From Methanomicrobium antiquum (GTDB taxonomy: Archaea; Halobacteriota; Methanomicrobia; Methanomicrobiales; Methanomicrobiaceae): a DNA stretch of 64,000 bases. Location of the stretch: contig NZ_CP091092.1 of the NCBI RefSeq assembly GCF_029633915.1, forward strand, positions 1,922,001 to 1,986,000. The letters run 5' to 3'. A program made the translations under genes and the position numbers. Shown here piece by piece: positions 190 through 15,055 of the stretch (the first letter of the stretch is position 1; each line of letters starts with the position of its first letter). The notes below the pieces were generated by a model. It ran no database searches. It was not told the DNA's origin and was given only the letters and a program-made list of their open reading frames with translations.

Positions 190-236
190 TTGATTACCAC
201 ATAATTGTAAAGAGAATGCTGTTTTTCATTTAGTAT

Positions 237-1412
237 TCATAAGACCTGCATAACTTCTGCAAATAATTCTTCAACATCAGTATATGAAGGTAATTTGGGA
301 TTTGTTGCAATGCAGGGATCTGTCATTGTATTTTTAACAAGAAGCGGTATATCCTCATAACGCCCGCCATGATTAGAAAGTGATTCTCCTTTAGTAAATG
401 AACCTCCAAGGGAAAATATTTTTTCAATAAGTATATCCAAAGCCTCAGAATCTGTTTTACCGCCTGTATCCGCCAAAAGCGCCTTTGAAACATCCCTGTA
501 TCGCTCAGGCTGACTAGAAAAGTTATAGCGTATAACAGCCGGCATCACAAGAAAACTTGAAAGACCATGAGGTGTTGAATAAACGCCGCCTATTGCATGC
601 GACATTGAATGTATTAGTCCAAGTCCTGCGTTTGAGAAAGAAATGCCTGCATAAAGACTGGACAGAAGAGTTTTGTAACGGAAATCAAGGTCATCTTTTA
701 ATGAAGAGTCATACGGAAAAGATTCTGCAATATTTTTTATCGCCTCTATTGCCAAAAGATCGCTCCAGTGTGACTGACCATTTGATAGATAGGCCTCAAT
801 AGCATGGGAAAATGCATCAATTCCAGAATATACAGTAATTTCATCAGGTTGTGTAGTTAAAGGAACAGGATCCAGTAAGGATACATCTGGAACGAGGGAT
901 TTTGATGTTATCAGGTTTTTCTTAAGATTATGCTTTGAACTGATTACTGCATACTGCGATACATCTGCAGAACTTCCTCCTGTTGTCGGAATGCAGATCA
1001 AAGGCGGCATCGGTTTTTTCACAAGATCCACCCCGATATAGCCGGCGATATCACCGCCGTTTGCGGCAACGATTCCTATTCCTTTTGCGCAGTCCAAAAC
1101 ACTGCCTCCACCTGCCGCAACTATTGCTGAGCACTCCTCAGCTTCATAAACAGCCGCTCCTTCCATAACCTCTCTGTCGGAGGGATTTTGCGATATATTT
1201 GTATAAACCTCAAAATCAATTCCTGCATTTAAAAGACTTTCAGTTATATCCTCCATCCAGAACTGGTTAAGCATATTTTCATCGGTTGCCAGAAGAATTT
1301 TATCAGAATGAAAATTAGACGCATATCTTCCGGCAAATACTCTGGAGTTGTCCCCTGTAATAAATTCAGGAGCTACAAATTTTCGAAGCTCCCGGTTAAG
1401 TTTCACTGGCAT
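237..1412 (-). CDS. Iron-containing alcohol dehydrogenase
   Basis: 391 residues, the usual length for group III Fe-dependent alcohol dehydrogenases, which oxidise or reduce alcohols and aldehydes with NAD(P). The N-terminal half carries the dinucleotide-binding loop GGGSVLDCAKGIG and the second family signature PTTGGSSADVSQYAVIS. The C-terminal helical half has the metal ligands in DAFSHAIEAY (Asp and His) and in HSMSHAIGGVYSTPHG (two His). Fermentative bacteria use such enzymes for ethanol, butanol or 1,3-propanediol; in methanogens a role in alcohol oxidation or aldehyde detoxification is possible, but the substrate cannot be read from sequence. The start at 1412 is the first ATG of the aligned N-terminus. 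Confidence 0.9.
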   Translation of the reverse strand: MPVKLNRELRKFVAPEFITGDNSRVFAGRYASNFHSDKILLATDENMLNQFWMEDITESLLNAGIDFEVYTNISQNPSDREVMEGAAVYEAEECSAIVAAGGGSVLDCAKGIGIVAANGGDIAGYIGVDLVKKPMPPLICIPTTGGSSADVSQYAVISSKHNLKKNLITSKSLVPDVSLLDPVPLTTQPDEITVYSGIDAFSHAIEAYLSNGQSHWSDLLAIEAIKNIAESFPYDSSLKDDLDFRYKTLLSSLYAGISFSNAGLGLIHSMSHAIGGVYSTPHGLSSFLVMPAVIRYNFSSQPERYRDVSKALLADTGGKTDSEALDILIEKIFSLGGSFTKGESLSNHGGRYEDIPLLVKNTMTDPCIATNPKLPSYTDVEELFAEVMQVL

Positions 1413-1978: not shown

Positions 1979-4441
1979 ATGAACAGTGAAAATACATCTG
2001 ATAAAAATTTTGGAGATAAAAAAGAGATAAATCTTAAAGTTTCAGGAATGCACTGTGCAATGTGTGCGGCAGGACTAGAGGCAACACTAAAAAAAGCCAG
2101 AGGAATTTATTCCGCTTCTGTTGACATTGCATCAGAACGTGCAGATATTTTTTACAACGAAGATGAAACTGACATAAGAGATATTGAAAAATTAATCAAT
2201 TCTGCAGGATACGGGATTATAAAATCTGAAATAAAAATAAAAATTTCCGGAATGCACTGTGCTGTCTGTGCAGAAAAGACAAAAAATGAGCTTTTAAAAA
2301 TACCGGGCATAATATCAGCTGATATCAATCTGATTGACAATTCAGCATTCATCACATTTATCAAAGAAAATGTTAAACTTTTGGATATAAAGGCGGCAAT
2401 AGAAAAAGCCGGCTTTGAATATATGGGAACAGATGAAGAGGTTTCAACCGACTCTGAGAATCAAATATTCTTAAAAGAGCAAAAAGAAAGGATAAAAAAA
2501 ATAATAATTGGTCTTTTTATATCAGGAGTTTTAATTGCACTGATGTTTTTTGGACAATCTCTGCCCCTGAACTTCCCTGTCTCATACCTTATGTTTATCA
2601 TCACAACTCCGGTATTTCTCTATCTTGGATATCCGATATTTAAAGCCGCATTCAAGGCCCTTTTGAATCATTCTCTCACAATGGATGTTATGTATGCAAT
2701 GGGAATCGGTGTTTCATACCTTTCATCTGTCTTTGGAACATTTGGGATAATCCTTACAAATGATTTCATGTTTTACGAAACATCGGTGATGCTCGCTACA
2801 TTTTTAACCCTGGGCCGTTTCCTTGAGGCAAAGGCAAAGGGAAAAACAAACGATGCCGTAAAAAAATTAATTGAACTTCGTCCAAAGACAGCATTTGTTA
2901 AAAGAAACGGCGAATTTGTTGAGGTCTCAGCAGATGAACTTTTGACAGACGAAGAAATTATGGTAAAGCCCGGAGGACGAGTGCCTGTTGACGGGCTTGT
3001 GATCTCAGGCGAAGGTTACATTGACGAATCTGCAATAACAGGCGAATCGCTCCCTGTTAGAAAATCAAAAGGAGACAGTGTAGTTGGAGGGACACTAAAC
3101 ACAGCAGACTCATTTGTATTCAGGTCAACAAAAGTCGGTCGTGAAACTGTCATATCTCAGATTATAAGACTTGTTGAGGAGACACAGCGGCAAAAACCGC
3201 CGGTGCAAAGACTTGCTGACACTGCTGTTTCATGGTTTATACCGGTAATACTTGCAATTGCATTAATTGCATCTTTTTCATGGTATTTTATCCTTGGAAG
3301 CAGTAGTCTTTTTGCACTTACTGTCTTTATCTCAATAATTGTAGTTGCATGCCCGTGTGCACTCGGACTTGCAACGCCAACAGCAGTTACAGTTGGAATT
3401 GGACGCGGAGCAGGCCTTGGAATTTTAATAAAGAACGGTGAGTCCCTTGAAGTTTCAAAAAAACTAAAGTGCATAATTTTTGACAAGACTGGAACTTTAA
3501 CAGTTGGAAAACCGTTTGTGACCTCTGTTAAATCATATAAAACCTCCCATGATGAACTCTTAGCAATTGCGTCAGGTGTTGAGATATCATCTGAACATCC
3601 AATAGCAAAGGCGATTGTCAAAAAAGCAGAAGATGAAGGCATAAAACCATTGCCTCTTTTAAGCTTTAAGTCGTTTGCAGGCGGAGGTGTTTCTGCTGAA
3701 TATGAGGGTAAAAAAGTTCTCATAGGAAATCAGGATTTTATTTTAAAAAGCGGTCTATTAATACCTGATAACATAAAAGATGAGCTTTCAGATTCCCAAA
3801 ACTCAGGAGAAACTGCGGTTTTGGTTGCTCTTGATAGTGAAATAACAGGAATTATATCTATTTCAGATGTTTTAAAGAGAAGTGCTCCTGTTTGTGTTGA
3901 AGAGATTAAAAAAATGGGGCTTTCTGTTGCGATGGTAACAGGAGATAACGAAAAAACTGCCAGGCATATTGCACAAAAAGCAGGAATAAGCGATGTCTAT
4001 GCAGGCGTTCTCCCGGATAAAAAAGCAGAGATTGTCAAAAGGATTCAGCAAACAACCGGCCCCTGTTCATTTGTCGGTGACGGAATAAATGATGCACCGG
4101 CGCTTGCAAAATCCGATGTAGGTATAGCCGTTGGAAGCGGAACGGAGATTGCCATTGAAAGTGCAGATATTGTTCTTATGCATGACAATCTTCTGGATGT
4201 ACCGGCGGCAGTTCAGCTTTCAAAAAAGGTAATGGGCAGAATCAGGTTAAACCTGTTCTGGGCGTTTGCATACAACACTGCACTTGTTCCAATAGCCGCA
4301 GGAATTTTGTACCCGGGATTTGGAATTATATTCAGACCGGAATATGCAGGTTTTGCAATGATTTTGAGTTCAGTAACGGTAATATCTCTCTCACTGCTTC
4401 TAAAAACGTACACTCCACCGGCAATATCGAAAGAAAGCTGA
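1979..4441 (+). CDS. copA: Copper-translocating P1B-type ATPase with two N-terminal metal-binding domains
   Basis: 820 residues. Two heavy-metal-associated domains open the protein, with GMHCAMC (Cys26, Cys29) and GMHCAVC (Cys94, Cys97). Membrane helices follow, then the actuator motif TGESLPV, the transport motif CPC (458-460) within ACPCALGLATP, the phosphorylated Asp502 in DKTGT, the HP dipeptide in SSEHPIAKA and the hinge GDGINDAPAL. CPC together with HMA domains defines Cu(I)/Ag(I) exporters, which pump metal out of the cytoplasm. The gene stands alone; its long upstream region holds a palindrome array that may be its control region. ATG at 1979 lies 10 bases after AAGGGATG, a weak ribosome site. 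Confidence 0.95.
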   Translation: MNSENTSDKNFGDKKEINLKVSGMHCAMCAAGLEATLKKARGIYSASVDIASERADIFYNEDETDIRDIEKLINSAGYGIIKSEIKIKISGMHCAVCAEKTKNELLKIPGIISADINLIDNSAFITFIKENVKLLDIKAAIEKAGFEYMGTDEEVSTDSENQIFLKEQKERIKKIIIGLFISGVLIALMFFGQSLPLNFPVSYLMFIITTPVFLYLGYPIFKAAFKALLNHSLTMDVMYAMGIGVSYLSSVFGTFGIILTNDFMFYETSVMLATFLTLGRFLEAKAKGKTNDAVKKLIELRPKTAFVKRNGEFVEVSADELLTDEEIMVKPGGRVPVDGLVISGEGYIDESAITGESLPVRKSKGDSVVGGTLNTADSFVFRSTKVGRETVISQIIRLVEETQRQKPPVQRLADTAVSWFIPVILAIALIASFSWYFILGSSSLFALTVFISIIVVACPCALGLATPTAVTVGIGRGAGLGILIKNGESLEVSKKLKCIIFDKTGTLTVGKPFVTSVKSYKTSHDELLAIASGVEISSEHPIAKAIVKKAEDEGIKPLPLLSFKSFAGGGVSAEYEGKKVLIGNQDFILKSGLLIPDNIKDELSDSQNSGETAVLVALDSEITGIISISDVLKRSAPVCVEEIKKMGLSVAMVTGDNEKTARHIAQKAGISDVYAGVLPDKKAEIVKRIQQTTGPCSFVGDGINDAPALAKSDVGIAVGSGTEIAIESADIVLMHDNLLDVPAAVQLSKKVMGRIRLNLFWAFAYNTALVPIAAGILYPGFGIIFRPEYAGFAMILSSVTVISLSLLLKTYTPPAISKES

Positions 4442-4471
4442 TTTTTTTAAATTTAAAAAATCTTTTTTTTT
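4440..4471 (+). terminator. Palindrome plus T-tract after copA
   Basis: Directly at the copA stop codon an A/T-rich near-palindrome (4440-4462, GAT...ATC arms) runs into nine consecutive T. A T-rich stretch at a gene end is the usual archaeal termination signal. It lies between convergent genes (copA and the response regulator). Confidence 0.5.
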
Positions 4472-4565
4472 CACAGGTTGTTAATGACTTTAAAAAACGT
4501 TCATGAAACTAATTTTTGATGCTCTGTTTTATGAAAATCATGATTTGAATTTATATGGTAAATGA

Positions 4566-4946
4566 TTATTCCAAATCTAAAATATCTGATATCTCTTTCA
4601 TCAGATCTTTCATTTCATATGGTTTTCTAAGAAAAACAGAATTTTCAATAAGTCCGGCTCTTTTCATAGTGCTCTCCTCAGTGCTTGCAGAAGAAAAAAT
4701 AACCGGCGTATTTACTCCTTTTGCCCTTATCCTCTCACATGCATCGATGCCGTCACCCTCTCCAATCAGTCTTATATCCATTATTATCAGATCAGGACTG
4801 TTTTCAAATGTCTCCCGGAAGGCATCTTTGCATGTGGCAACAGGCCCTATGCTTTCAAAAGACATAATCTCGGTGACTACCGTTTTTATGAAATGACCTA
4901 TTAAATCATCATCTTCTACAATTAAAATTACAGGCTTTTTAATCAT
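4566..4946 (-). CDS. Receiver-only response regulator
   Basis: 126 residues consisting of a single CheY-like receiver domain: acidic pocket EDDD (11-14), phosphoacceptor Asp57 in LIIMDIRL, the conserved Ser/Thr in FSSAST, and the Lys in LRKPYE. There is no output domain, as is common in archaea. Its start overlaps the stop of the upstream histidine kinase gene (4943-4946), so the two are translationally coupled and very likely a cognate pair. The downstream target is unknown. Confidence 0.88.
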   Translation of the reverse strand: MIKKPVILIVEDDDLIGHFIKTVVTEIMSFESIGPVATCKDAFRETFENSPDLIIMDIRLIGEGDGIDACERIRAKGVNTPVIFSSASTEESTMKRAGLIENSVFLRKPYEMKDLMKEISDILDLE

Positions 4947-6061
4947 ATATTATCAATACTGTCTCCATTCTCTTGTTTTCCTTTAATAAATTCAGTTTTT
5001 ATTGTAATTATCCATGACGTTCCTCTCTCCATATCAGTGCTCTCAAGAGTTCCGGATATTTGTTTTGTTATTATATCACGAGCGTTTCTAAGTCCAAAGC
5101 CTGTTTCTCCGATGCATCTTTGCTTTTTCATTCCAACTCCGTCATCACAGACTTTAATGATTACTTCTTTTTTGTCCTCTTTTAAGCTGATTTCTATATT
5201 TCCGCCGGTTTCATCAAATGCATGATCAACTGAATTTTTTAAGAGTTCATACATTGCTGTGCTCAAAAGAACTGCATTTGAAAGTTTTGCCTCAATTTCG
5301 TCACCTGATATTTTTATAGATATTTTTTCTCTTTTTTCCTGTTTCAACCCGTCAAGGATTAATTTTGCAAGAGATTCGAAATTCTCTTTTAAAAGAAGAG
5401 TTGCCTTATCCTCTTTATTATAAAGGTCATCATGAATAATTCCAAGATATTTTATCCTGTTTGTAGCTTCGTTTATTACATCAAGGGCAATTTCATCTTT
5501 GATTCTGAGAGATTTTATTCCAAGCAGGCTTATTATATACTGAAGGTTGTTTTTTACCCGATGGTGAAGTTCGCCTATTAATTCAGATTTTTTATCAAGA
5601 ACCCTGCTGAGTTCGAGGTTTTTCTCTTCTAAGCTCTCAACACTTCCCTGTATTTTATCAAGAAGAATATTTGCGGAGCGGATGATAGATGATATTTCAT
5701 CGTCACCTTCTTCTCTTAGCCTTACATTATAATTTTCGTTTTCGGCAATTTTTTCAAGCTCATATGAAAAAAATTCCAGACGTCTTGTGATTATTGATTC
5801 CAGGAAATAGCTGATGATGATTACTACTACGATGCAGGTTATTATTGCAAATATAAAATTAAGGAGAAGAGACCCAAAGCCAAGCCTGAATAGTTCTCTT
5901 TCATTTGTTACTTTTATGTATCCGGCAATTTCATCCTCAATACTGTAAACAGGAGATATAAGAGATATTTCATCATCGCCTTCACTGTAAACTATTAAGG
6001 GTTCAGAAAACTCAGATGGCAGATTCAGCTTTTCATATGAATCTAAATCCAAAAATCCCAT
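4943..6061 (-). CDS. Sensor histidine kinase, C-terminal part (HisKA_2/HATPase); 5' part lies in another frame
   Basis: 372 residues: the remaining extracellular sensor segment, a transmembrane helix (about 75-100), a HAMP-like linker, a coiled coil, the phosphoacceptor box GELHHRVKNNLQYI of the HisKA_2/LytS-like class, and an HATPase domain with N-box ELLKNSVDHAF and G-box CDDGVGM and GFGLRNA. The apparent ATG at 6061 is internal: the CHASE4 sensor domain belonging to the same protein is encoded just upstream in a different frame (6070-6666). One missing base near 6071-6075, in an A-rich run, would join them into a normal kinase of about 570 residues. It is probably the partner of the receiver gene that overlaps its 3' end. 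Confidence 0.85.
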   Translation of the reverse strand: MGFLDLDSYEKLNLPSEFSEPLIVYSEGDDEISLISPVYSIEDEIAGYIKVTNERELFRLGFGSLLLNFIFAIITCIVVVIIISYFLESIITRRLEFFSYELEKIAENENYNVRLREEGDDEISSIIRSANILLDKIQGSVESLEEKNLELSRVLDKKSELIGELHHRVKNNLQYIISLLGIKSLRIKDEIALDVINEATNRIKYLGIIHDDLYNKEDKATLLLKENFESLAKLILDGLKQEKREKISIKISGDEIEAKLSNAVLLSTAMYELLKNSVDHAFDETGGNIEISLKEDKKEVIIKVCDDGVGMKKQRCIGETGFGLRNARDIITKQISGTLESTDMERGTSWIITIKTEFIKGKQENGDSIDNI

Positions 6062-6069
6062 CTTCTGAT

Positions 6070-6666
6070 TTATTTCCTTTGAAATTCCTGCAAATAATCA
6101 CCGGACAGCTTTTTTGCCATCACGAATACCCCATTGACAGGACCATCAAGATTGCTCTTCAGGAGAGGATTTATTGTAACAATGTAGATATCTCCGTCTG
6201 CATCAATTATTCCGGCCCTGTTGCTGTAAAAAGAGGGTGTTTTAACATAATTGCTTTCTTTAACTTTTTTTATGAAATTTCCGGGAATTTCTGTAAATTT
6301 ATTTTCTTCAAAATCATAGTATCTCCCATAAAAAAATTCACCTTTTTTGTCAAAATAAAGTATTGCATCCAATTCAAGATTTGTAAATGTTGATTCAGGA
6401 AGATTCTCCTCAATATAGTAAGAATCCATATCATCCATAAAATAATATGAGGAATCCCAGTATGACCAGTCGCGATTTAGCTGATTTACAGAGGATATTT
6501 TATAATAGAGATAGTTCTCTGCCGCCAAAGAGTCTTTTTCTAATTCATGCTGTTCTATTTTTTCGAGATTTTCAATTCCAAAGAAGAAAAGTCCGAACAA
6601 AAAACCGGCAAGGAGCAGAGCAACCGTTAGTATAATCAGCAGATTTACTTTTCTTTTAATTCTCAA
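6070..6666 (-). CDS. CHASE4 extracellular sensor domain (5' part of the broken histidine kinase)
   Basis: 198 residues: a membrane helix at about 8-30 (LLIILTVALLLAGFLFGLFF) followed by a CHASE4 domain, with the typical YWDSSYYFMDD motif and the ending GPVNGVFVMAKKLS. CHASE4 is an extracytoplasmic ligand-sensing domain of prokaryotic kinases. The frame stops at 6070 just where family members continue into the second membrane helix, which here is in the next open frame. It is therefore best read as the N-terminus of the following kinase, interrupted by a -1 shift in the A-rich stretch near 6071-6075. The ligand is unknown. Confidence 0.75.
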   Translation of the reverse strand: MRIKRKVNLLIILTVALLLAGFLFGLFFFGIENLEKIEQHELEKDSLAAENYLYYKISSVNQLNRDWSYWDSSYYFMDDMDSYYIEENLPESTFTNLELDAILYFDKKGEFFYGRYYDFEENKFTEIPGNFIKKVKESNYVKTPSFYSNRAGIIDADGDIYIVTINPLLKSNLDGPVNGVFVMAKKLSGDYLQEFQRK

Positions 6667-7150
6667 ATTGAAAACCTCTCCCCCTTTTAAAATACAGGTT
6701 TTTATTCACTCAAATATCTGCTATATCCTGAAAAGGCAGATACAGACCACATATAAGCCAAAAAATATGGCATCCTAATATTTTTAAGCATTGCATATTG
6801 TGTCCTACTTTCTATTAATAATTAATCAATCTCTCATTCATATTTATTTGAAAAGCAGGGTTTAATATGAAATATTTTTTTCAGTGATAACTTAAAAATA
6901 ACTTAATTCTAAAAATAACCTAATTTTAAAATAACATAATCCTTAGGATTATTTTAACACATTTGTTTAATCTGACTTTATTTTTAGATTTTTTTGTTAT
7001 AATTATCTTAGCACCTTTTTTAATTTGGTACATTTTTACATTTTTTAACTGGAAAAAGATAATATTTGGATATTTTATCTGTTCTGAAATTTACCAGCCC
7101 TGAGATTTTTAGTCAATTCTGCTCTTTATAAATTCTTTTAGTAGTCAATA
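6667..7150. other. A+T-rich intergenic region with degenerate short repeats
   Basis: 484 bases without a supported gene, between the CHASE4 kinase start and the HTH regulator 3' end. Around 6888-6945 there are three to four degenerate 16-17-base units beginning AACTTAAT, AACCTAAT and AACATAAT, each followed by an A-rich run. The 11-mer AGTCAATTCTG occurs at 7111 and again at 7156. No hairpin or known RNA is evident. Confidence 0.4.
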
Positions 7151-7642
7151 TTAGTAGTCAATTCTGTTTTTAAGAGAGAAAAGAGCATCAGTTATTGTCT
7201 TCGTATCAGGCTTTATTATTGCAACAGGAACATCTACTACCTTTTCAATCATAGAGGCAAGTATTGGTGCACAAACAATCCCGCAGGCTCCTTCTTTTTC
7301 TGCACGGACGCCGGATACAATGCACTCTTCCATCGTATATGCCGGAAATCCTTTTATCCGGTAGGTTTTTTTGCCGATATCAATCTTTTTGGACTCAACT
7401 TCGTCAAGCAAGAATTTAGCGGCGATAACTGCAATAAACCCCGATTCATGAGGCTCAAGAGTGTTTACGATAGCCTGAACCGTTGAGAAACGCGGATCTC
7501 TTTCGCCTGATGTTATCTTATATATAGTTGCGGCAGGAATGCCGGCATTGTCTGCAAGCTCTTTTATACTCACTCCCTTTCGAAAAAGCTCTTCTTCAAG
7601 AGCGATTTTAAAGCCAACTTCAAAAATTCTCTTAGAGAACAT
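7151..7642 (-). CDS. HTH transcriptional regulator of a methanogen-type family
   Basis: 163 residues. The N-terminus is an XRE-like helix-turn-helix (VSIKELADNAGIPAATIYKITSGERDP, about 24-50). The C-terminal half, MEECIVSGVRAEKEGACGIVCAPILASMIEKVVDVPVAIIKPD, resembles a small ligand-binding alpha/beta fold. Proteins of this layout are found in methanogens; I know of no assigned function. The gene is divergent from the coenzyme M/methanogenesis cluster, with 269 bases between them, so it is a candidate regulator of that cluster or of itself. This is inferred from position only. Confidence 0.75.
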   Translation of the reverse strand: MFSKRIFEVGFKIALEEELFRKGVSIKELADNAGIPAATIYKITSGERDPRFSTVQAIVNTLEPHESGFIAVIAAKFLLDEVESKKIDIGKKTYRIKGFPAYTMEECIVSGVRAEKEGACGIVCAPILASMIEKVVDVPVAIIKPDTKTITDALFSLKNRIDY

Positions 7643-7752
7643 AATTAATGAATACAGTTGTACAAATACATGCTTAATAATTTTCCTTCCTGTGAAAAAT
7701 CAATCCGTCTAAATGATACCGCTGATACGTTTTTTTTAGTATTCTATAAAAA

Positions 7753-7762
7753 TTTCATGAAA
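7753..7762. promoter_or_regulatory. TTTCATGAAA palindrome in the divergent promoter region
   Basis: A perfect 10-base palindrome in the 269-base gap between the HTH regulator and the first gene of the coenzyme M cluster, about 150 bases upstream of the latter. It is the same motif that is clustered upstream of copA. Confidence 0.4.
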
Positions 7763-7911
7763 AAAATGCAGAAAACAAATTCAGAATGCAAAATTTTTAT
7801 ATCATAAATTAATACAATGGTGGAATTTTTAATATTAACTTTTTCCTTAAAAGGGCATTTATTTTACTTATAGGGAAACATTTTAGTTTAATTATAACTA
7901 TAACAATTGTA

Positions 7912-8691
7912 ATGCATACATCCGAGATTAGGGAGATTACAATTCTTCCGGGGAAGAACAAAGATAATTCTTCTGAAAACTTCAGGGAAATAAAAATCCG
8001 GCCAGGAGATACAATATCAATAGTAGGACCTACAGGTTCAGGCAAAAGTGCATTTATCAATGATATTGAAATGTTTGCACAAAAAGATACAGTTACCAAA
8101 AGAACTGTTCTTGTAAACAGTCTCCCTGCACCTGAAGAATTCATTCGGGATCCTTCAAAAAAACCTGTTGCAATGATCACTCAAAATACAAAATGTCTTG
8201 CAGATTTAACAGTCAGGCAATTCCTTGACATGCATGTACGATCAAGAAAAATTGCTGATGAAACAGTTGTTGAAAAGACAATTGAGCTTGCAAACGAATT
8301 TACAGGCGAAAAGATTGTTGAAAATGTGCGTATGACTTCACTTTCAGGCGGACAGACCAGATCACTCATGATTGCTGATGCAATTGTTGTCTCAAACACT
8401 CCAATTATTCTTCTGGATGAGATAGAAAATGCCGGCATTTTTAAGGAAAATGTCATAAAATGCTTAAAAACTCATAAGAAAGCACTTCTATTTGTAACTC
8501 ATGATCCTCTTGTTTCACTTCTTTCAGAGAGAAGAATTGTAATGAAAAACGGGGCAGTATCAGAAGTAATTTGTCCGGGAGATTCTGAAAAAGAAGCATT
8601 GTCTGAAATATTAAAGATAGATTTGACAATGTCTGCTCTACGTGAAAGAATCCGCTGTGGTGAAATAATAAAAAACATTCAGCCGGCATGA
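7912..8691 (+). CDS. ABC-type ATP-binding protein of the coenzyme M/methanogenesis cluster
   Basis: 259 residues with all nucleotide-binding elements of an ABC ATPase: Walker A GPTGSGKS, Q-loop ITQNT, signature LSGGQTRSLMIADA, Walker B IILLDEIEN and the H-loop in FVTHD. There is no membrane partner nearby, so it is more likely a soluble mechanical or assembly ATPase than a transporter subunit. It heads a run of coupled genes and overlaps the next gene by the ATGA arrangement at 8688. Related soluble ABC proteins act in methanogens on methyl-coenzyme M reductase (component A2), but this protein is shorter and has one ABC domain, so a direct equivalence is not claimed. Confidence 0.8.
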   Translation: MHTSEIREITILPGKNKDNSSENFREIKIRPGDTISIVGPTGSGKSAFINDIEMFAQKDTVTKRTVLVNSLPAPEEFIRDPSKKPVAMITQNTKCLADLTVRQFLDMHVRSRKIADETVVEKTIELANEFTGEKIVENVRMTSLSGGQTRSLMIADAIVVSNTPIILLDEIENAGIFKENVIKCLKTHKKALLFVTHDPLVSLLSERRIVMKNGAVSEVICPGDSEKEALSEILKIDLTMSALRERIRCGEIIKNIQPA

Positions 8692-9395
8692 AACTTATAG
8701 TTATAGCAGGGCCACCCTCTGCAGGAAAAACTGCTGTTGTCAGGCAGATAATATCAAAATTTCATCCGGATAAAAAATGTTCATACCTAAAAATTGACGT
8801 TGTAAGAGCTTTTGAAGACGAAGAGCTAAGAAATGAATTTAATATACCTACAAAAAAAGTTTATTCAGGAGATGTCTGCCCGGACCATGCCGGAATTTTG
8901 GTTATGAAAGATGCAATAAACTGGGCAGAAAAAAACAACTCACAAATTCTCATTGTTGAAAGTGCAGGTCTTTGTCTCAGATGTTCTCCATACACAACGC
9001 AGTCACTTGGAATTGTTGTATTAAGTGCAATCTCAGGCACAAATTCACCTCTTAAGATGTCTTCAATGCTTGCATTGTCAGACATATCTGTTGTCACAAG
9101 AATTGATCTGGTATCCCAGGCAGAAAAGGAGGTTTTCCGCGAAAAAATAAAGGAAGTAAGAGAAGACCTCGATATAATTGAGACAAACGCTATCTTTGGA
9201 ACAGGCCTTAAATATCTTTTCAGAGCAATTGAAAACCTCACCGACATAACTAATCCGGATGAAATCACATTAAGAGGAAATCCCCCGCTTGGTGTCTGCA
9301 CAGTCTGTGCCGGTAAAAAAGAAATAGGCTGGGAAAACCATTTTGGTGTCATCAGAAAACTGGACTCGGATGATTTTTTCTTTAGGGGAGACTGA
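8688..9395 (+). CDS. HypB/UreG-like P-loop GTPase of the coenzyme M cluster
   Basis: 235 residues. The P-loop is GPPSAGKTAVV at the N-terminus, then SGDVCPDHAG and VESAGLCLRCSPY, which correspond to the switch and metal-binding segments of the HypB/UreG/CooC-like (SIMIBI) GTPases, and TRIDL in the base-recognition position. Two CxxC pairs (LCLRC near the middle, CTVCAG near the end) could bind metal or an Fe-S cluster. Such GTPases help insert metals into enzymes. Tight coupling to an ABC ATPase and two Fe-S proteins suggests a maturation factor for the neighbouring Fe-S or metal enzyme. The client is inferred. Confidence 0.75.
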   Translation: MKLIVIAGPPSAGKTAVVRQIISKFHPDKKCSYLKIDVVRAFEDEELRNEFNIPTKKVYSGDVCPDHAGILVMKDAINWAEKNNSQILIVESAGLCLRCSPYTTQSLGIVVLSAISGTNSPLKMSSMLALSDISVVTRIDLVSQAEKEVFREKIKEVREDLDIIETNAIFGTGLKYLFRAIENLTDITNPDEITLRGNPPLGVCTVCAGKKEIGWENHFGVIRKLDSDDFFFRGD

Positions 9396-9396
9396 G

Positions 9397-10092
9397 ATGG
9401 AAACCGGCATTTTGGATGAAAAAATCCTCAAAGGATGGAAAAATCCGGGGAAAAATTGCGGGGCATGTGGTGAAAAATCCTGTGAAATGTTTGAAAAATC
9501 CGTAATATCAGGAGAAAAAGAACTAAAAGACTGTCCCTTTTATAAAGAAAATAATTCCGGATTTTTAACTGATACAAAACAGTCTGATAATCCAACAGAA
9601 AAGTCCTGCAATAATCAGGTATACTCAGGATATGACATACTAAATATACAGTATGACTTTGTTCTGCATCCTATCCCGGATGAGCCCTCAGCAAGGAAAA
9701 TAATTCTTCCGTTCAGGCCTGAACTTGCTGAAAAGCTAAACATTCAAAAAGACGACATTTTGCTTGGAAGACCTCAGGGTGCAGGCTGTCCTGTTCAGCA
9801 CATACTCTCAGTAATAAAAGCTGATTTTCTGACAGGAGTTATCACATCGCATGTTGTAAGTCCGGTTATTGCAAGAGAAAATCCCGACAGAGTTAAAGAA
9901 ATACGTGCATATCATATTATTGGTTTTGAAGGAATAGCCCAAAACATAAATTCAGAACCTCTGTTTGGGAGAAGACAGAGGTTTCTTCCAGGCTTTTGTA
10001 TGATGAATCTTTGCCATACCGGCGTTGTCAATATGTGTGTCAATAAAAAAACCGGCCTGCATGTCAGAGTGGAGGATATAAGAATAATATGA
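9397..10092 (+). CDS. Methanogen Fe-S protein with N-terminal 4Fe-4S motif
   Basis: 231 residues from ATG 9397, chosen over the longer frame from 9343 because AGGGGAG (9384-9390) lies seven bases upstream and the previous gene stops at 9395. The N-terminus GKNCGACGEKSCEMF...DCPFY is the CxxCG-x3-C...C pattern of the 4Fe-4S domain found at the start of acetyl-CoA synthase/corrinoid proteins. The remaining 170 residues, with PQGAGCPVQHILSVI and PGFCMMNLCHTGVVNMCV, are a domain I recognise only as methanogen-associated. It overlaps the next gene by four bases and may supply electrons or a cluster to it. No precise function is claimed. Confidence 0.7.
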   Translation: METGILDEKILKGWKNPGKNCGACGEKSCEMFEKSVISGEKELKDCPFYKENNSGFLTDTKQSDNPTEKSCNNQVYSGYDILNIQYDFVLHPIPDEPSARKIILPFRPELAEKLNIQKDDILLGRPQGAGCPVQHILSVIKADFLTGVITSHVVSPVIARENPDRVKEIRAYHIIGFEGIAQNINSEPLFGRRQRFLPGFCMMNLCHTGVVNMCVNKKTGLHVRVEDIRII

Positions 10093-11315
10093 AGAGTATT
10101 TCAGAGATTAATGAAAAAATAAAGAAAGGCTGTGCCACCGTTTTAACAGCAGAAGAATTCAAGACGCTTGTAAGGGAGGGAAATACACCGTCTTTTAATG
10201 ACGTTGATGTTGTAACCTGTGCAACATGCGCAGTTATGTCAGGAACATATGCACAAATGACAATTCCGGTTGAAAAGCCCGGCCTTTTCAGGAGAGTTCA
10301 GAAAATGACACTGAACGGTGTTTCTGCATTCTGCGGGCCGTGCCCGAATGAAGGACTTGGAACGGCGGATGTAATTGTCTACGCTACAGAAAAAGCCTCA
10401 AAAACATACGGCGGAGGACATCTTTTCAGGGATATTGTAGAAGGAAACGAGATTGAAGTCATTGCAGAGGCAGAAGGAAAAACATATGAAAAAACAATCT
10501 TTGGCGATGAAATAGAATCTGCACGGATGCTTACCACAAGAAGCGCCTTTAAGAACTATTCCGCTTTCGTAAACGAATCAAAAGAACCATTTGATACAAT
10601 ATTTTCAGTTCTTCCTTTAAAGGGTGGACTTTCAGAGGCGACAGTCTCAGGATGTGGTGAGATAAACCCGCTTCAAAACGACCATGATATGAGATATTTG
10701 AAATCAGGCGCTAAAATTTTATTAAACGGCTCCATTGGAAGGATAATCGGGCAGGGAACAAGAAGCAGTCTGAAAAAACCAAATCTTTCAGTATATGCTG
10801 ATATGTCTGATATGATGCCGGAATTTATGGGGGGATTTGTCACATCAAAAGGCCCTGAGTGCATAACAACAATTGCAACAGCACTTCCGGTGACTGATGA
10901 AAGAGCAATTGAATGTCTGTCTGTTCTTGATTCGGATATTATTCTCCCTGTTGAAGATGTTATTAAAAGAAGCCACAAAGGAGATTCAGATTATGGACAA
11001 ATCTGGCAGGGAACAGACATAAAGCCTGAAGTAAACCCTATGAACTGTCTGTTCTGCGGAGAGTGTCCGGCAGGGCTAAGTTGTCCCACACGTGCAATAA
11101 TGCCTGGCGGAGGCATAATATCCTCAAGGTGTGTTTCATGCGGAACATGTGTTTTTACATGTCCGGGTGAGGTTTACACAATGAATATGGGGAATATTGA
11201 ATACAACGGAAATTCTTCTCCTGTAAAACTAAGGCAGTCTGACAAAAGCCGGGCAAATGAGATGACAGAGATTTTGAAGGATATGATAGAAAAAGGAGAT
11301 TTCACTTATTTCTAA
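10089..11315 (+). CDS. DUF39/COG1900-type protein with two ferredoxin clusters (methanogenesis marker 16-like)
   Basis: 408 residues. The first 330 match the DUF39/COG1900 (HcyBio) family, with conserved cysteines in DVVTCATCAVMSGTYAQ and FCGPCPNEGLGT. The C-terminus has a bacterial-type ferredoxin pair: CLFCGECPAGLSCP and CVSCGTCVFTCPGE. This architecture is the putative methanogenesis marker 16 metalloprotein. COG1900 relatives take part in sulfide incorporation into aspartate semialdehyde to give homocysteine. Next to the coenzyme M genes, the analogous reductive thiolation of sulfoacetaldehyde to coenzyme M is an attractive inferred role. The start overlaps the previous stop (ATGA), with GGAGGAT upstream. 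Confidence 0.8.
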   Translation: MKSISEINEKIKKGCATVLTAEEFKTLVREGNTPSFNDVDVVTCATCAVMSGTYAQMTIPVEKPGLFRRVQKMTLNGVSAFCGPCPNEGLGTADVIVYATEKASKTYGGGHLFRDIVEGNEIEVIAEAEGKTYEKTIFGDEIESARMLTTRSAFKNYSAFVNESKEPFDTIFSVLPLKGGLSEATVSGCGEINPLQNDHDMRYLKSGAKILLNGSIGRIIGQGTRSSLKKPNLSVYADMSDMMPEFMGGFVTSKGPECITTIATALPVTDERAIECLSVLDSDIILPVEDVIKRSHKGDSDYGQIWQGTDIKPEVNPMNCLFCGECPAGLSCPTRAIMPGGGIISSRCVSCGTCVFTCPGEVYTMNMGNIEYNGNSSPVKLRQSDKSRANEMTEILKDMIEKGDFTYF

Positions 11316-11345
11316 TTATTAAGAAATTAAAACTGAGGTGATGAT

Positions 11346-12620
11346 ACGGGAGAATACAAACTTGTATGTCCAAAGTGTAAAGCAGGATTTTTGGACAATT
11401 ATGAGAATAAGTGCATTAATGGCTGTAATTCTCTCATAAAAGCTGATTATAAACAAAAAAAACTGACAGTTAGAAATCTTCCCGGAATGTTTAAGTTTCA
11501 TGACTGGCTTCCTGTGAGAGGTTTTAGTGAGACTGAAGCATCGCCTGTTACATATAAAAGCAGTGCTTTATCAAAAGAGCTTGGAATACCAGGTCTTTAT
11601 ATTACATTCAACGGTTACTGGCCGGAGATAAATGCAAAAATTAAAACATGCTCTTTTAAAGAGCTTGAAGCTGTTCCTACAATGCTCAGGATGGAAGAGA
11701 GCAAAAGTAACGATACAATTCTGGTCTCATCCGCCGGAAACACAGGTCGTGCATTTGTTGAGGTTTCAGCACAGACAAAAATTCCGGCAATTGTTGTTGT
11801 GACAAAATCAGCTTTAAAAAACATATGGACAACAAAACCTGCAGAGAATGCGATATTAATCGCAGTTGATGGTGACTACACCGATGCAATTGAGTTTGGA
11901 AACAGACTATGCAATACTCAGGGTATAGTTTCGGAGGGAGGAGCAAAAAATCCTGCAAGACGTGACGGGATGGGAACTGCTTTTCTTGACGGTGCAGTTT
12001 TTGCAGGCAATATTCCTGACTGGTACTTCCAGGCTGTCGGAAGTGGAACAGGTGCAATTGCCGCAGTTGAGATGGCTGAAAGGCTTATCTCAGACGGAAG
12101 GTATGGAGATACACTTCCAAGACTTTATCTTTCACAAAATGAAGGCTTTTCTCCGATGGTTAACGCATGGAATGAAAACAGACGTGAGATAATAGAAGAA
12201 TTAGATATGCCAGATGCAAAAAATTCTGCACTTGATGCATATTCTCCTGTTCTTACCAACAGAACTCCGCCATACTCACTCACAGGCGGACTTTATGACA
12301 CACTTTTGAAATCAGACGGAATAATGACTGCAGTTTCAAAGAGAAAAGCAGAAAATGCAGGCAGGATTTTTGAAGAAACAGAGGGCGCTGATTTGGATAA
12401 AGCGGCACAGGTTTGTCTGGCATCACTCATTGAGGCATCAGAAAAGGGACTTATTAAAGCTGACGAAACTGTTCTTTTAAATATCACCGGCGGAGGCTAC
12501 AAATTTGCAAAAGAAGAGCTTCTTTTAATTGAAACAAAACCTTTTGCAGAGGTTTTGCCGGGCGATGACGTAACAGGACTACAAAAAGATATTTTTGAGA
12601 GGCTAAAACAGCATGCATGA
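11346..12620 (+). CDS. Cysteate synthase (coenzyme M pathway), non-canonical start
   Basis: A PLP enzyme of the threonine synthase superfamily that makes L-cysteate from O-phosphoserine and sulfite. The PLP lysine lies in KTCSFKELEA, the phosphate loop is SSAGNTGRAF, and the C-terminal glycine motif is NITGGGYKFAKEE. The Zn-ribbon-like N-terminus VCPKCKAGF...CINGC is in frame upstream of the first usual start (TTG 11391), so translation must begin earlier. An excellent ribosome site, GAGGTGAT (11335-11342), sits just before ACG at 11346, giving TGEYKLVCPKC where an initiating Met would be expected. Either ACG is used, or an ATG was mutated or misread. It overlaps the decarboxylase gene downstream. 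Confidence 0.88.
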   Translation, partial: TGEYKLVCPKCKAGFLDNYENKCINGCNSLIKADYKQKKLTVRNLPGMFKFHDWLPVRGFSETEASPVTYKSSALSKELGIPGLYITFNGYWPEINAKIKTCSFKELEAVPTMLRMEESKSNDTILVSSAGNTGRAFVEVSAQTKIPAIVVVTKSALKNIWTTKPAENAILIAVDGDYTDAIEFGNRLCNTQGIVSEGGAKNPARRDGMGTAFLDGAVFAGNIPDWYFQAVGSGTGAIAAVEMAERLISDGRYGDTLPRLYLSQNEGFSPMVNAWNENRREIIEELDMPDAKNSALDAYSPVLTNRTPPYSLTGGLYDTLLKSDGIMTAVSKRKAENAGRIFEETEGADLDKAAQVCLASLIEASEKGLIKADETVLLNITGGGYKFAKEELLLIETKPFAEVLPGDDVTGLQKDIFERLKQHA

Positions 12621-13725
12621 AAAGAGATTTTCAGAAATTTTAAAAGAATCAGATATTGAATTTGCAGTATCACTTCCATGTGACAGAACTAAAGAGCTCT
12701 GTAACTTTCTTGAGAGAGATTTTAATTACATCAATATAAACCGGGAAGAAGACGGAGTAGGGATATGTGCCGGACTTGCACTTTCAAAACGAAAATTTAT
12801 TCTTCACATGCAAAGCTCCGGTCTTGGAAATTCTCTTAATGCAATAATGTCACTAACACATCTATACGGCCTTCCTCTTCCTGTGATTGCAAGCTTCAGA
12901 GGATTTTACAATGAACAAATTTCCGCCCAGATTCCGTTTAACAGCAAAATACCAGGCATACTGAGTCTTTTCGATATAAAATACACAATAATTCAGGAAG
13001 CACCAGAACTTGGGAGAATAAAAGATATTATCAGGTGCTGTTTCCTAAATTCAGAAATTCATGTTGTTTTAATATCACCGAAAGTCTGGGAAAAAAATTC
13101 GTCTCCGGCTGATTCATCATTCCCAAAAAGAAGCAGAAAACTAGAACTTTCCTTTAAAAGAGAGATCAAAGAGCCTTTGATGAGCAGAAACGATGCAATT
13201 AAAATATTATCTGAATATCTTTCAGATGAACTTTTAGTCTGCAATCTGGGTGTTCCGTCAAAAGAGCTTTACAAGGCATGCGACAGGCATGAAAACTTCT
13301 ACATGCTTGGAAGCTACACACAGGCATCACCGATAGGCCTTGGAATTGCACTTGGACAGGATAAGAAAACATTTGTGCTTGACGGAGATGGAAGCATTCT
13401 TGGAACGGCTGTTCTTCCGGTGGTAGCTTCAAAAAATCTTAAAAATTTAACAATATTTGCGCTTGACAATGGTGCTTTTGGAAGTACAGGTATGCAGATG
13501 ACTCATGCATGGACAAACTGTAATCTGGAACTTATGGCAAAAGCGGCAGGAATTGCAGACACTGCATCTGTTCAGACCGAAGATGCTCTAAGAAAACTTA
13601 TGGAAGAGAAAAAAGACAACCTGCCCCAATTTGTTCATGTTTTGATAAAGCCCGGAAATTCCGATGCAGGAAACATTCCTCTTACACCTTCTGAGATAAA
13701 AGAGAGATTTTTAAATTGTTTTTAA
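12613..13725 (+). CDS. comDE: Sulfopyruvate decarboxylase, fused alpha and beta subunits
   Basis: 370 residues. The N-terminal 165 resemble the ComD alpha subunit (PYR domain, with REEDGVGICAGLALS carrying the catalytic Glu and LHMQSSGLGNSLNAIM). The C-terminal part matches ComE, with the thiamine-diphosphate motif beginning DGDGSILGTAV and ending DNGAFGSTG. The enzyme decarboxylates 3-sulfopyruvate to sulfoacetaldehyde, the penultimate stage of coenzyme M synthesis. In Methanocaldococcus the subunits are separate; fused forms occur in the cysteate synthase lineages. The start overlaps the cysteate synthase stop by eight bases. The transaminase needed between the two steps is not in the window. 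Confidence 0.92.
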   Translation: MHEKRFSEILKESDIEFAVSLPCDRTKELCNFLERDFNYININREEDGVGICAGLALSKRKFILHMQSSGLGNSLNAIMSLTHLYGLPLPVIASFRGFYNEQISAQIPFNSKIPGILSLFDIKYTIIQEAPELGRIKDIIRCCFLNSEIHVVLISPKVWEKNSSPADSSFPKRSRKLELSFKREIKEPLMSRNDAIKILSEYLSDELLVCNLGVPSKELYKACDRHENFYMLGSYTQASPIGLGIALGQDKKTFVLDGDGSILGTAVLPVVASKNLKNLTIFALDNGAFGSTGMQMTHAWTNCNLELMAKAAGIADTASVQTEDALRKLMEEKKDNLPQFVHVLIKPGNSDAGNIPLTPSEIKERFLNCF

Positions 13726-13757
13726 TTTTTAAATTTTTTTAAGAGATTTTTAATATA

Positions 13758-13806
13758 CCATGAAACTGTTGCATGAAATATATTTTTCATGGACGTTTTT
13801 TGGCAA
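13758..13806. repeat. Palindromic CATGAAATATAT...TTTCATG element, copy 1
   Basis: Between the convergent comDE and pgk ends. The core GTTGCATGAAATATAT then TTTCATGGAC and TTTTTTGGCAA matches a second copy at 15857-15905 in the same order. The core is an inverted repeat (CATGAAA/TTTCATG) with a TATA-like centre. Because no gene starts here, a dispersed palindromic repeat is as likely as an operator. Confidence 0.5.
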
Positions 13807-13825
13807 GCTTAAAAACAGATGTATT

Positions 13826-15055
13826 TCAGGAGCATTTTTCTCTGTAAAGCTCCCAGCTTTTTTCAAGCGCTGATATTGCCGGAAGCATTTTCCCGGTAAG
13901 GAATTCTATGCATGCACCGCCTCCAGTTGAGATGTGGCTGAATTTTTCATTTATTCCAAGAGATTCAACAACAACTGCAGTGTGACCTCCGCCGACAACA
14001 GAAAAATCCGCTTCTGCTGAGGCCTTTAAAAGCTCAAAAGTTCCTGTCGAAAACATACTCTCCTCAAAAAGTCCGGCAGGCCCGTTGAAAACAACAGTTC
14101 CTGAATTCTGAAGAATATCACAAAAGGATGCAACCGAATCGATTCCCAAATCAAGAACAGGAGACTTCTTTGGTATTTTATCAACAGAGACCTCCTCTCT
14201 TTCTCCATCGCTGTTTCTTACTGCGACATATTCCGGAAGAACAACTCTGTCTTTGAATTTTGAAAGAATTTCAGCGGCTTTTGACACCTCATCTGAATAT
14301 CCGAGCTTCTTTATAAGATCATATGACGGATCCCCAATGTTTATTCCTTTTGCAGTCAAAAACACATTTGCAACAACGCCGACTATCAAAATTTTATCGG
14401 CAGTTTTGCATTCAAGAACGTTTTTTGCAACACTTAAAGAGTCATCTACTTTTGTTCCACCAAGAACAAAAGTAACCGGCTTTGGAGAATCACTAAACAC
14501 TCTTGAAAGGCATGACACCTCTTTTTCCATGAGTGTTCCGGCGACAGATTTCATTGCAAGCGGAATTCCGACAATTGTCGGCTGGGAACGATGAGCTGTT
14601 CCAAAGGCATCGTTTACATAAAAGTCGGCCATTGATGAAAGGCCTCTTGCAAGATGAGTTGATGCTCCGTCTTCAGGAGACATTTTTATGTTCTCCTCTG
14701 CATTGAAACGTAAATTTTCAAGCATCAGTACATCTCCGCACTCCATTCTTTTGACAGCGTCTCTTGCACATCTGCCGAAAATGTCGTCTATGTATTCAAC
14801 CGGCCGGCCGATTAAGCGCTCAAGCCTTTCAGCATGAGCCTTTAAGGTTGTAAAATCCTTCTTTAGCGGCCTGCTCTGATGTGTTGCAATAATTAGTTTT
14901 GAATCAGAAAGATTCCGGACTGTTGGTGCATGCTCACGGAATCTTTTGTCGTCCAGAATTATATTTGACGCCGGATCTATTGGAGAGTTAAAATCCACAC
15001 GCAAAAGGACGGTTTTTTTATTTGTCTCTATATCATTAAGCGTTCCAAATCTCAT
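13826..15055 (-). CDS. pgk: Phosphoglycerate kinase
   Basis: 409 residues, full archaeal length. It carries the N-terminal signature VLLRVDFNSPID, substrate-binding arginines (HQSRPLKK, ENLRFNAEE, FGTAHRSQPT), the nucleotide side GGTKVDDSLSV and FNGPAGLFE, and the C-terminal glycine loop VVGGGHTAVV then STGGGACIEFLTG. It interconverts 1,3-bisphosphoglycerate and 3-phosphoglycerate with ADP/ATP, in methanogens mostly in gluconeogenesis. It supplies 3-phosphoglycerate, the precursor of the phosphoserine used by the neighbouring cysteate synthase, although the two genes are convergent and not in one operon. Confidence 0.95.
   Translation of the reverse strand: MRFGTLNDIETNKKTVLLRVDFNSPIDPASNIILDDKRFREHAPTVRNLSDSKLIIATHQSRPLKKDFTTLKAHAERLERLIGRPVEYIDDIFGRCARDAVKRMECGDVLMLENLRFNAEENIKMSPEDGASTHLARGLSSMADFYVNDAFGTAHRSQPTIVGIPLAMKSVAGTLMEKEVSCLSRVFSDSPKPVTFVLGGTKVDDSLSVAKNVLECKTADKILIVGVVANVFLTAKGINIGDPSYDLIKKLGYSDEVSKAAEILSKFKDRVVLPEYVAVRNSDGEREEVSVDKIPKKSPVLDLGIDSVASFCDILQNSGTVVFNGPAGLFEESMFSTGTFELLKASAEADFSVVGGGHTAVVVESLGINEKFSHISTGGGACIEFLTGKMLPAISALEKSWELYREKCS

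Follow-up and report, generated by a model that had tools for sequence, protein, structure and literature searches.

Three genes that accompany cysteate synthase in a coenzyme M operon of Methanomicrobium antiquum

In a 64,000-nucleotide stretch of the Methanomicrobium antiquum genome (NZ_CP091092.1, positions 1,922,001 to 1,986,000; "the window" is this whole stretch), six tightly packed genes on the + strand (window positions 7912–13725) form the operon with which this methanogen makes coenzyme M (CoM) by the cysteate route. Methyl-coenzyme M reductase requires CoM to form methane. An operon of this kind is ordinary for methanogens, and the locus itself was already known. The enzyme for the last step of CoM synthesis has now been assigned. 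Three other genes, which we will call the trio, stand first in the operon and encode an ABC ATPase, a G3E GTPase, and a COG2000-type iron-sulfur (Fe-S) protein. We found that the most constant partner of the Fe-S gene is cysteate synthase (CS), rather than the CoM synthase MMP16. We tentatively propose that the trio is an optional module that supplies metal and Fe-S chemistry for the CS step and is not part of CoM synthase; we see this as nearly, but not quite, an even call. Because the Fe-S gene goes with CS, and can be missing alone between sister species, "role unknown" becomes a question about a specific step.

A six-gene operon for the cysteate route

The earlier note, which was made from the letters of the window, described six genes with overlapping or near-overlapping starts, and the coordinates and strand confirm this. 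The trio consists of the soluble ABC-type ATPase (7912–8691, + strand; PF00005, 57.5 bits against a gathering cut-off of 25), the G3E (HypB/UreG-type) GTPase (8688–9395, +; PF02492, 45.3 bits against 20.7), and the Fe-S protein (9397–10092, +; PF04060, 42.7 bits, which passes). Next come MMP16, also known as ComF, with a COG1900/DUF39 domain and a ferredoxin domain (10089–11315, +; TIGR03287, 498.2 bits against a cut-off of 363.95; PF01837, 316 bits); CS, a pyridoxal phosphate enzyme (11346–12620, +; TIGR03844, 555.4 bits against 324.9); and the sulfopyruvate decarboxylase ComDE (12613–13725, +). ComDE is over the cut-offs for both the alpha subunit (TIGR03845, 187 versus 148 bits) and the beta subunit (TIGR03846, 227.3 versus 221.5 bits), which makes it a fusion of the two subunits. 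The ABC ATPase and GTPase genes overlap by 4 bases, as do the Fe-S and MMP16 genes, and CS and ComDE overlap by 8 bases. The six genes are in the same order in four other loci (L003, L004, L005, and L008), and in 31 of the 48 surveyed genomes with the Fe-S gene, MMP16, CS, and ComE are all found no more than 6 kb away from it, so the arrangement is not due to chance. (Here and below, L, G, C, f, and g designate loci, genomes, contigs, families, and genera.)

No ATG, GTG, or TTG in the CS frame could serve as a start and preserve the N-terminal cysteine pairs. An ACG codon at 11346–11348 aligns with the ATG of CS genes from relatives, including six loci from the same family (L042 and L044–L048). 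The ACG is preceded by a sequence that resembles a ribosome-binding site (GAGGTGAT), an in-frame stop codon lies 12 bases upstream, and the next standard in-frame start is the TTG at 11391. In two further species (L041, which is L003, and L043, which is L004), the aligned codon is likewise ACG, with an in-frame GTG 9 bases upstream. Translation of CS probably starts at the ACG.

The Fe-S gene is linked to CS

We searched 196 genomes from the same phylum for MMP16, the Fe-S protein, the GTPase, CS, and ComE. We followed the ABC gene in individual trio loci only, where it adjoins the GTPase gene apart from L136 and L138, both truncated at the end of a contig. CS was considered present if its match was over the cut-off (83 genomes). 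For MMP16 we used the same rule and also accepted two fragments (91 genomes). The Fe-S gene had to match at over 60 bits (48 genomes), and the GTPase at over 140 bits (53 genomes, including all 48 with the Fe-S gene and a partial copy in G003). For ComE (104 genomes), we accepted sub-cut-off matches down to 131 bits, and we excluded by judgement a match of 136 bits in G138, a genome from family f23 without MMP16. Genes within 6 kb of each other were considered to be near. We also sampled 28 genomes from the same family as M. antiquum, of which 5 are among the 196, and 35 of the 196 are from the same order. Association statistics from these samples, including Fisher tests, ignore shared ancestry and hence are inflated, so their value is descriptive. 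Several of the genomes are drafts, including the odd combinations G047, G170, and G179; G056, G079, G009, G203, and G206 are single contigs.

The earlier note described the CoM genes as locked to an ABC ATPase, a HypB-like GTPase, and two Fe-S proteins, and suggested checking whether the six genes co-occur across genomes. MMP16, CS, and the Fe-S gene are found together in 43 genomes, and 46 of the 48 genomes with the Fe-S gene have ComDE; 38 of the 83 genomes with CS have no full-length match to the Fe-S protein, and 47 of the 91 genomes with MMP16 lack the Fe-S gene. The Fe-S gene is present in 45/83 CS genomes, in 44/91 MMP16 genomes, and in 1 of the 15 MMP16 genomes without CS.

The locations of the genes are more telling. 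The Fe-S gene is near CS in 41 of 48 genomes, near MMP16 in 33, and near ComE in 33; it is near none of them in 5. In eight genomes, all from family f22, it is near CS only. MMP16 and ComE are together at another place in seven of these eight genomes; in G171, the eighth, a distance of 12.6 kb separates them on a single contig. In two more genomes (G056 and G176), the Fe-S gene is near CS and ComE and not near MMP16. The reverse situation, with the Fe-S gene near MMP16 only, was seen twice (G179 and G170). These discordant cases (10/48 with CS and without MMP16 nearby, versus 2/48) favor CS as the partner of the Fe-S gene.

Closer relatives of M. antiquum show the same pattern. Within its family, 18 of 28 genomes have CS and 16 have the Fe-S gene, all of them among those 18 (the other two are G202 and G218). 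The 10 family genomes without CS all lack the Fe-S gene as well, although 6 of these 10 are less than 90% complete. In the order sample, where the genomes listed are at least 98% complete, the Fe-S gene was found in all 23 genomes with CS and in 1 of the 12 genomes without it. Furthermore, 15 of the 16 Fe-S genes from the family are near CS, while 10 of the 16 are near MMP16. In five genomes from genus g87 (G201, G203, G204, G206, and G207), the Fe-S gene is beside CS and MMP16 is elsewhere. (G201 is 59% complete and has broken frames for the Fe-S gene and MMP16.) The sixteenth genome, G196, is split over contigs; a fragment of MMP16 adjoins its Fe-S gene but was tallied as not near.

The trio also behaves as a separable module that can come or go by itself. 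G056, a single contig that is 99% complete, has the order ABC-GTPase-FeS-CS-ComDE without any MMP16 over the cut-off. In genus g49, CS directly adjoins ComDE in G095 and G186, which lack the Fe-S gene, while the Fe-S gene lies between CS and ComDE in six sampled sister species (including G061, locus L164, and G135, locus L139). And in genus g63, four genomes have MMP16, CS, and ComDE, but none of the four has a match to the GTPase or a full-length match to the Fe-S protein (the best weak match has E ~ 1e-4). Genus g63 is Methanosarcina-like: the best matches for McrA of G139 are 8gf5 (1234 bits) and 1e6y (1221 bits), which we take to be Methanosarcina structures, and the next match is at 924 bits. 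In Methanosarcina acetivorans, cs, comDE, and MMP16 are consecutive genes (MA3297–MA3299; PMC12068725). These genes are from the same families as the genes in the window, which has three additional genes upstream of MMP16. With no such matches in the four g63 genomes, and with MA3297–MA3299 consecutive, the function of MMP16 does not seem to depend on the trio in Methanosarcina-like genomes.

We also considered that the trio might serve MMP16, as the earlier note proposed, with the Fe-S protein as its electron donor and with the GTPase and the ATPase as factors for cluster or metal maturation. The overlap of the Fe-S gene with the start of MMP16 in the window fits with this idea, as do their proximity in 33 of 48 genomes and the two genomes (G179 and G170) in which MMP16 adjoins the Fe-S gene without CS nearby. 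However, the Fe-S gene keeps its place by CS in genomes that have MMP16 at another location or not at all (10/48 genomes, and 5/16 in the family), and G056 has the trio without MMP16 over the cut-off. Also, over half of the genomes with MMP16 (47/91) lack the Fe-S gene. Neither maturation of MMP16 by the GTPase and the ATPase nor electron donation to it by the Fe-S protein is supported: MMP16 has two cluster motifs, with eight cluster-type cysteines, of its own, and it occurs in genus g63 without any GTPase match or a full-length match to the Fe-S protein. Overall, service to MMP16 seems quite unlikely.

The linkage of the trio to CS is the lead here. According to the legend of Fig 2 of PMC12068725, genes for an ATPase, a nickel-binding GTPase, and a COG2000 Fe-S protein are frequent neighbors of CoM genes, with no role known for them; by the legend for Fig 2B, the MMP16-CoM clusters have the same kinds of neighbors as in the window. 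The sections of that paper that we consulted do not mention an attachment to CS, and we found no other publication on the trio in the open-licence literature.

MMP16 and the last step of CoM synthesis

The earlier note proposed that the DUF39/COG1900-ferredoxin protein catalyzes the last step of CoM synthesis. This is right, but it had already been published: MMP16 (ComF) is the primary CoM synthase in M. acetivorans, with L-aspartate semialdehyde sulfurtransferase (L-ASST) as a possible backup (PMC12068725). The genetic evidence concerns the M. acetivorans protein (PMC12068725); the window's protein is ComF by its family membership, and its function is taken from that paper. A later paper describes the last step as thought to be non-enzymatic or potentially catalyzed by MA3299 (PMC12713407).

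The PF01837 and Fer4 matches of MMP16 correspond to a COG1900 domain that is joined to a ferredoxin domain with two clusters. The earlier note counted two Fe-S proteins in the operon: the PF04060 protein is one, but the second is MMP16 itself. In an alignment of 42 rows (with G135 and G061 entered twice), seven of the eight cluster-type cysteines of MMP16 are invariant and the eighth occurs in 40 of the 42. L-ASST (COG1900a, MA1821–22) resembles MMP16 in having PF01837 and in its sulfur chemistry on an aldehyde, but the window's protein passes TIGR03287. And the M. antiquum genome, a single contig of 2.44 Mb that is 99.7% complete, has a separate second PF01837 gene (C1:1078838–1079851), which is probably L-ASST.

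As evidence that would speak against this assignment, the earlier note named genomes with the CS route that lack the DUF39 paralogue. There are such genomes: 7 of the 83 with CS lack MMP16. But all seven retain a weaker COG1900 match (best E from 1e-42 to 1e-48), which is probably L-ASST, so the assignment of MMP16 stands. Alternatively, the trio itself might be another system for inserting sulfur into sulfoacetaldehyde to form CoM. This could account for G056 and G039, in which CS, ComDE, and the Fe-S gene are present but no MMP16 reaches the cut-off. However, MMP16, CS, and the Fe-S gene are found together in the 43 genomes mentioned above, and another five genomes (G019, G118, G149, G188, and G191) combine CS and ComDE but are missing both MMP16 and the Fe-S gene. 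Also, an L-ASST-type COG1900 protein may stand in for MMP16 (PMC12068725). We consider sulfur insertion by the trio to be highly improbable.

Serine replaces the conserved C189 of MMP16 in 4 of the 42 rows. These are from four genomes that lack the Fe-S gene; we put this down to chance or shared ancestry. We also noticed full-length but diverged MMP16-like proteins, which score below the cut-off, in G211 (C4:326034–327275; 290 bits) and G213 (C50:5661–6914; 275 bits). Both genomes are from the same genus as M. antiquum, and we did not find CS or the Fe-S gene in either.

The proteins of the trio

In the ABC ATPase, the motifs PTGSGKS, LSGGQ, and LLDE are invariant in 7/7 aligned rows. It is not over the cut-off for any of the best 25 of 138 matched NCBIfam models. 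No permease gene is directly beside it, as its neighbors in the window are a helix-turn-helix gene and the GTPase gene (the wider genome was not searched).

The earlier note called the GTPase HypB-like. The protein does belong to the same family (G3E, PF02492), but it does not reach the HypB equivalog (TIGR00073; 57.7 versus 121.2 bits), and it is below the cut-offs for both the hypB and the ureG models. Its profile matches the structures of UreG and HypB, which rank below three matches to RecA P-loop proteins. CPDH, CxRC, and CxxC are invariant across 18/18 rows, which include a paralogous group, and are candidate metal-binding motifs. CPDH aligns with the region of the Cys-His residues of HypB and the Cys-Pro-His residues of UreG, which presumably bind metal; unlike those nickel GTPases, the window's GTPase has CxRC and a C-terminal CxxC in addition.

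The name COG2000 for the Fe-S protein is taken from PMC12068725, and our assignment to a family is via PF04060. Across 21 rows, C21, C24, C29, and C46, which form the N-terminal cluster, are invariant, and so are C131, H135, C201, and H207. From their conservation, the latter four could form a second site, which is a candidate metal site. The N-terminal part matches 4djd_C (E = 6e-7 in a profile search of the Protein Data Bank (PDB); N-terminus only), and the likeness to the gamma subunit of the corrinoid iron-sulfur protein is confined to this 4Fe-4S domain, as the C-terminal domain has no profile match among PDB sequences. The AlphaFold2 models, from eight-row alignments, have mean pLDDT (predicted local distance difference test) scores of 53.5 for the Fe-S protein and 51.1 for the GTPase, which is too poor to read metal sites. 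With this poor model of the Fe-S protein, Foldseek gave no match at E ≤ 0.001, and its high-probability matches were to the N-terminal domain of the corrinoid Fe-S protein.

A possible role in the CS step

Enzymes of the CS family convert O-phosphoserine and sulfite to cysteate. In the pathway known for these enzyme families, CS would form cysteate in this way, an aminotransferase encoded outside of the operon would convert cysteate to sulfopyruvate, and ComDE would convert sulfopyruvate to sulfoacetaldehyde. MMP16 would then convert the aldehyde group to a thiol, which gives CoM. In our proposal, the second Cys/His site of the Fe-S protein would receive a metal with the help of the GTPase and the soluble ATPase, and the Fe-S protein may perform sulfur redox chemistry that feeds the CS step. 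It could even supply the sulfite. In favor of a supply module for CS, the Fe-S gene is lost together with CS in the family and the order, the metal-type motifs are conserved, and some trios adjoin sulfur genes.

Because CS needs sulfite, which provides the oxidized sulfur of the sulfonate group, the boldest reading is that the trio is a dedicated, metal-loaded system that makes or delivers the sulfite for CS, and that copies of the trio beside IscS-, ThiF-, ThiS-, or LarE-like genes perform the same sulfur chemistry in other pathways. We would be surprised if this were correct in full.

Several observations weigh against a role in the CS step or against sulfite supply in particular. First, the 38 CS genomes without a full-length Fe-S match imply that the trio is not required by CS in general, and the two such genomes within the family (G202 and G218) show this among close relatives. 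Second, a trio persists in G182, where none of CS, ComDE, and MMP16 reaches the cut-off, and in G179 and G170, both of them drafts, the Fe-S gene adjoins MMP16, not CS. Third, the alternative ComA route to CoM also needs sulfite, yet the Fe-S gene is present in only 1 of the 15 MMP16 genomes without CS. Fourth, with regard to sulfite supply, the sulfite/nitrite reductase domain (PF01077) is found in all 32 of the genomes that we chose. (With 1–5 matches in each genome, PF01077 was uninformative as a contrast between CS genomes with and without the trio.) Finally, a small sulfite reductase (alSir), running in reverse, has been proposed as the source of sulfite for CoM synthesis, with the source in situ described as unclear (PMC6286981).

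Alternatively, the trio might be a general module for metal or sulfur homeostasis that is merely co-regulated with CoM genes and takes no step in the pathway. M. antiquum has a second trio that is far from CoM genes (L130), G182 has a trio without CoM genes over the cut-off, a paralogous pair of the GTPase and the ATPase is beside a "heavy-metal chelation" gene (L140; similar-looking genes are found elsewhere), and a homologue of the GTPase is encoded beside apparent phage tail genes on a contig from IMG/VR. But the co-loss with CS in the family and order speaks against a general module, and so does the occurrence of the Fe-S gene with ComDE in 46 of 48 genomes. We think this is unlikely, though well worth keeping in mind.

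Other trios, remnants, and neighboring genes

The second trio of M. antiquum (L130, C1:444000–460000, at 4239–8756) is divergent from a gene for an NMT1-like binding protein, whose frame has no standard start codon at the N-terminus, and is near ThiS and ThiF. In trees, this copy groups with those of G056, G011, and G047. In L135 (G009, C1:1409000–1426000, at 7283–14613), a gene for an IscS-type aminotransferase lies between the GTPase and Fe-S genes of the trio operon, and nearby are ThiF, more genes that look by eye like IscU and IscS, and a gene for an NMT1-like protein. In L133 (G011), the trio adjoins a PP-loop gene that we read by eye as LarE-like. The trio of G182 (L132, 6190–8549; one contig) is diverged. 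The Fe-S gene of G047 (L134, 6469–7077) has one in-frame TAG.

In L140–L145 and L147, paralogous GTPase and ABC genes form a pair and the Fe-S gene is missing. The gene beside the pair in L140 is DUF364/DUF4213 ("heavy-metal chelation" in Pfam), and similar-looking genes follow the pair in L141, L143, and L144.

L160 (G003, C1:610000–618000, at about 3879–5229) is a remnant of a CoM operon, in which the N-terminal half of the GTPase runs in frame into the C-terminal half of ComE, and the ABC gene matches as two pieces in different frames. We found no match in G003 to the Fe-S protein, to CS, or (over the cut-off) to MMP16, so this species probably needs external CoM.

A divergent gene upstream of the operon in the window (7151–7642, − strand) encodes a Cro/C1-type helix-turn-helix protein (PF01381, 33.9 bits). 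It probably belongs to the locus and is likely the regulator of the operon. Homologues are upstream of the ABC gene in L003, L004, L006, L131, and L160, and none was found there in L005, L007, L008, L130, or L132–L135.

Two scans of viral contigs returned one and the same contig, from IMG/VR (L165). It encodes a GTPase that is 54% identical to that of the window (208–1154), followed by an Fe-S gene that is cut short and by genes that look, by eye, like those for phage tails; perhaps it is a prophage that inserted into the Fe-S gene of its host. Plasmid records contained no match to the Fe-S protein and one distant GTPase, in a Fusobacterium record with no annotation there. A scan of genome contigs returned seven loci, all from Methanomicrobiaceae, Methanomicrobiales, or Methanospirillum.

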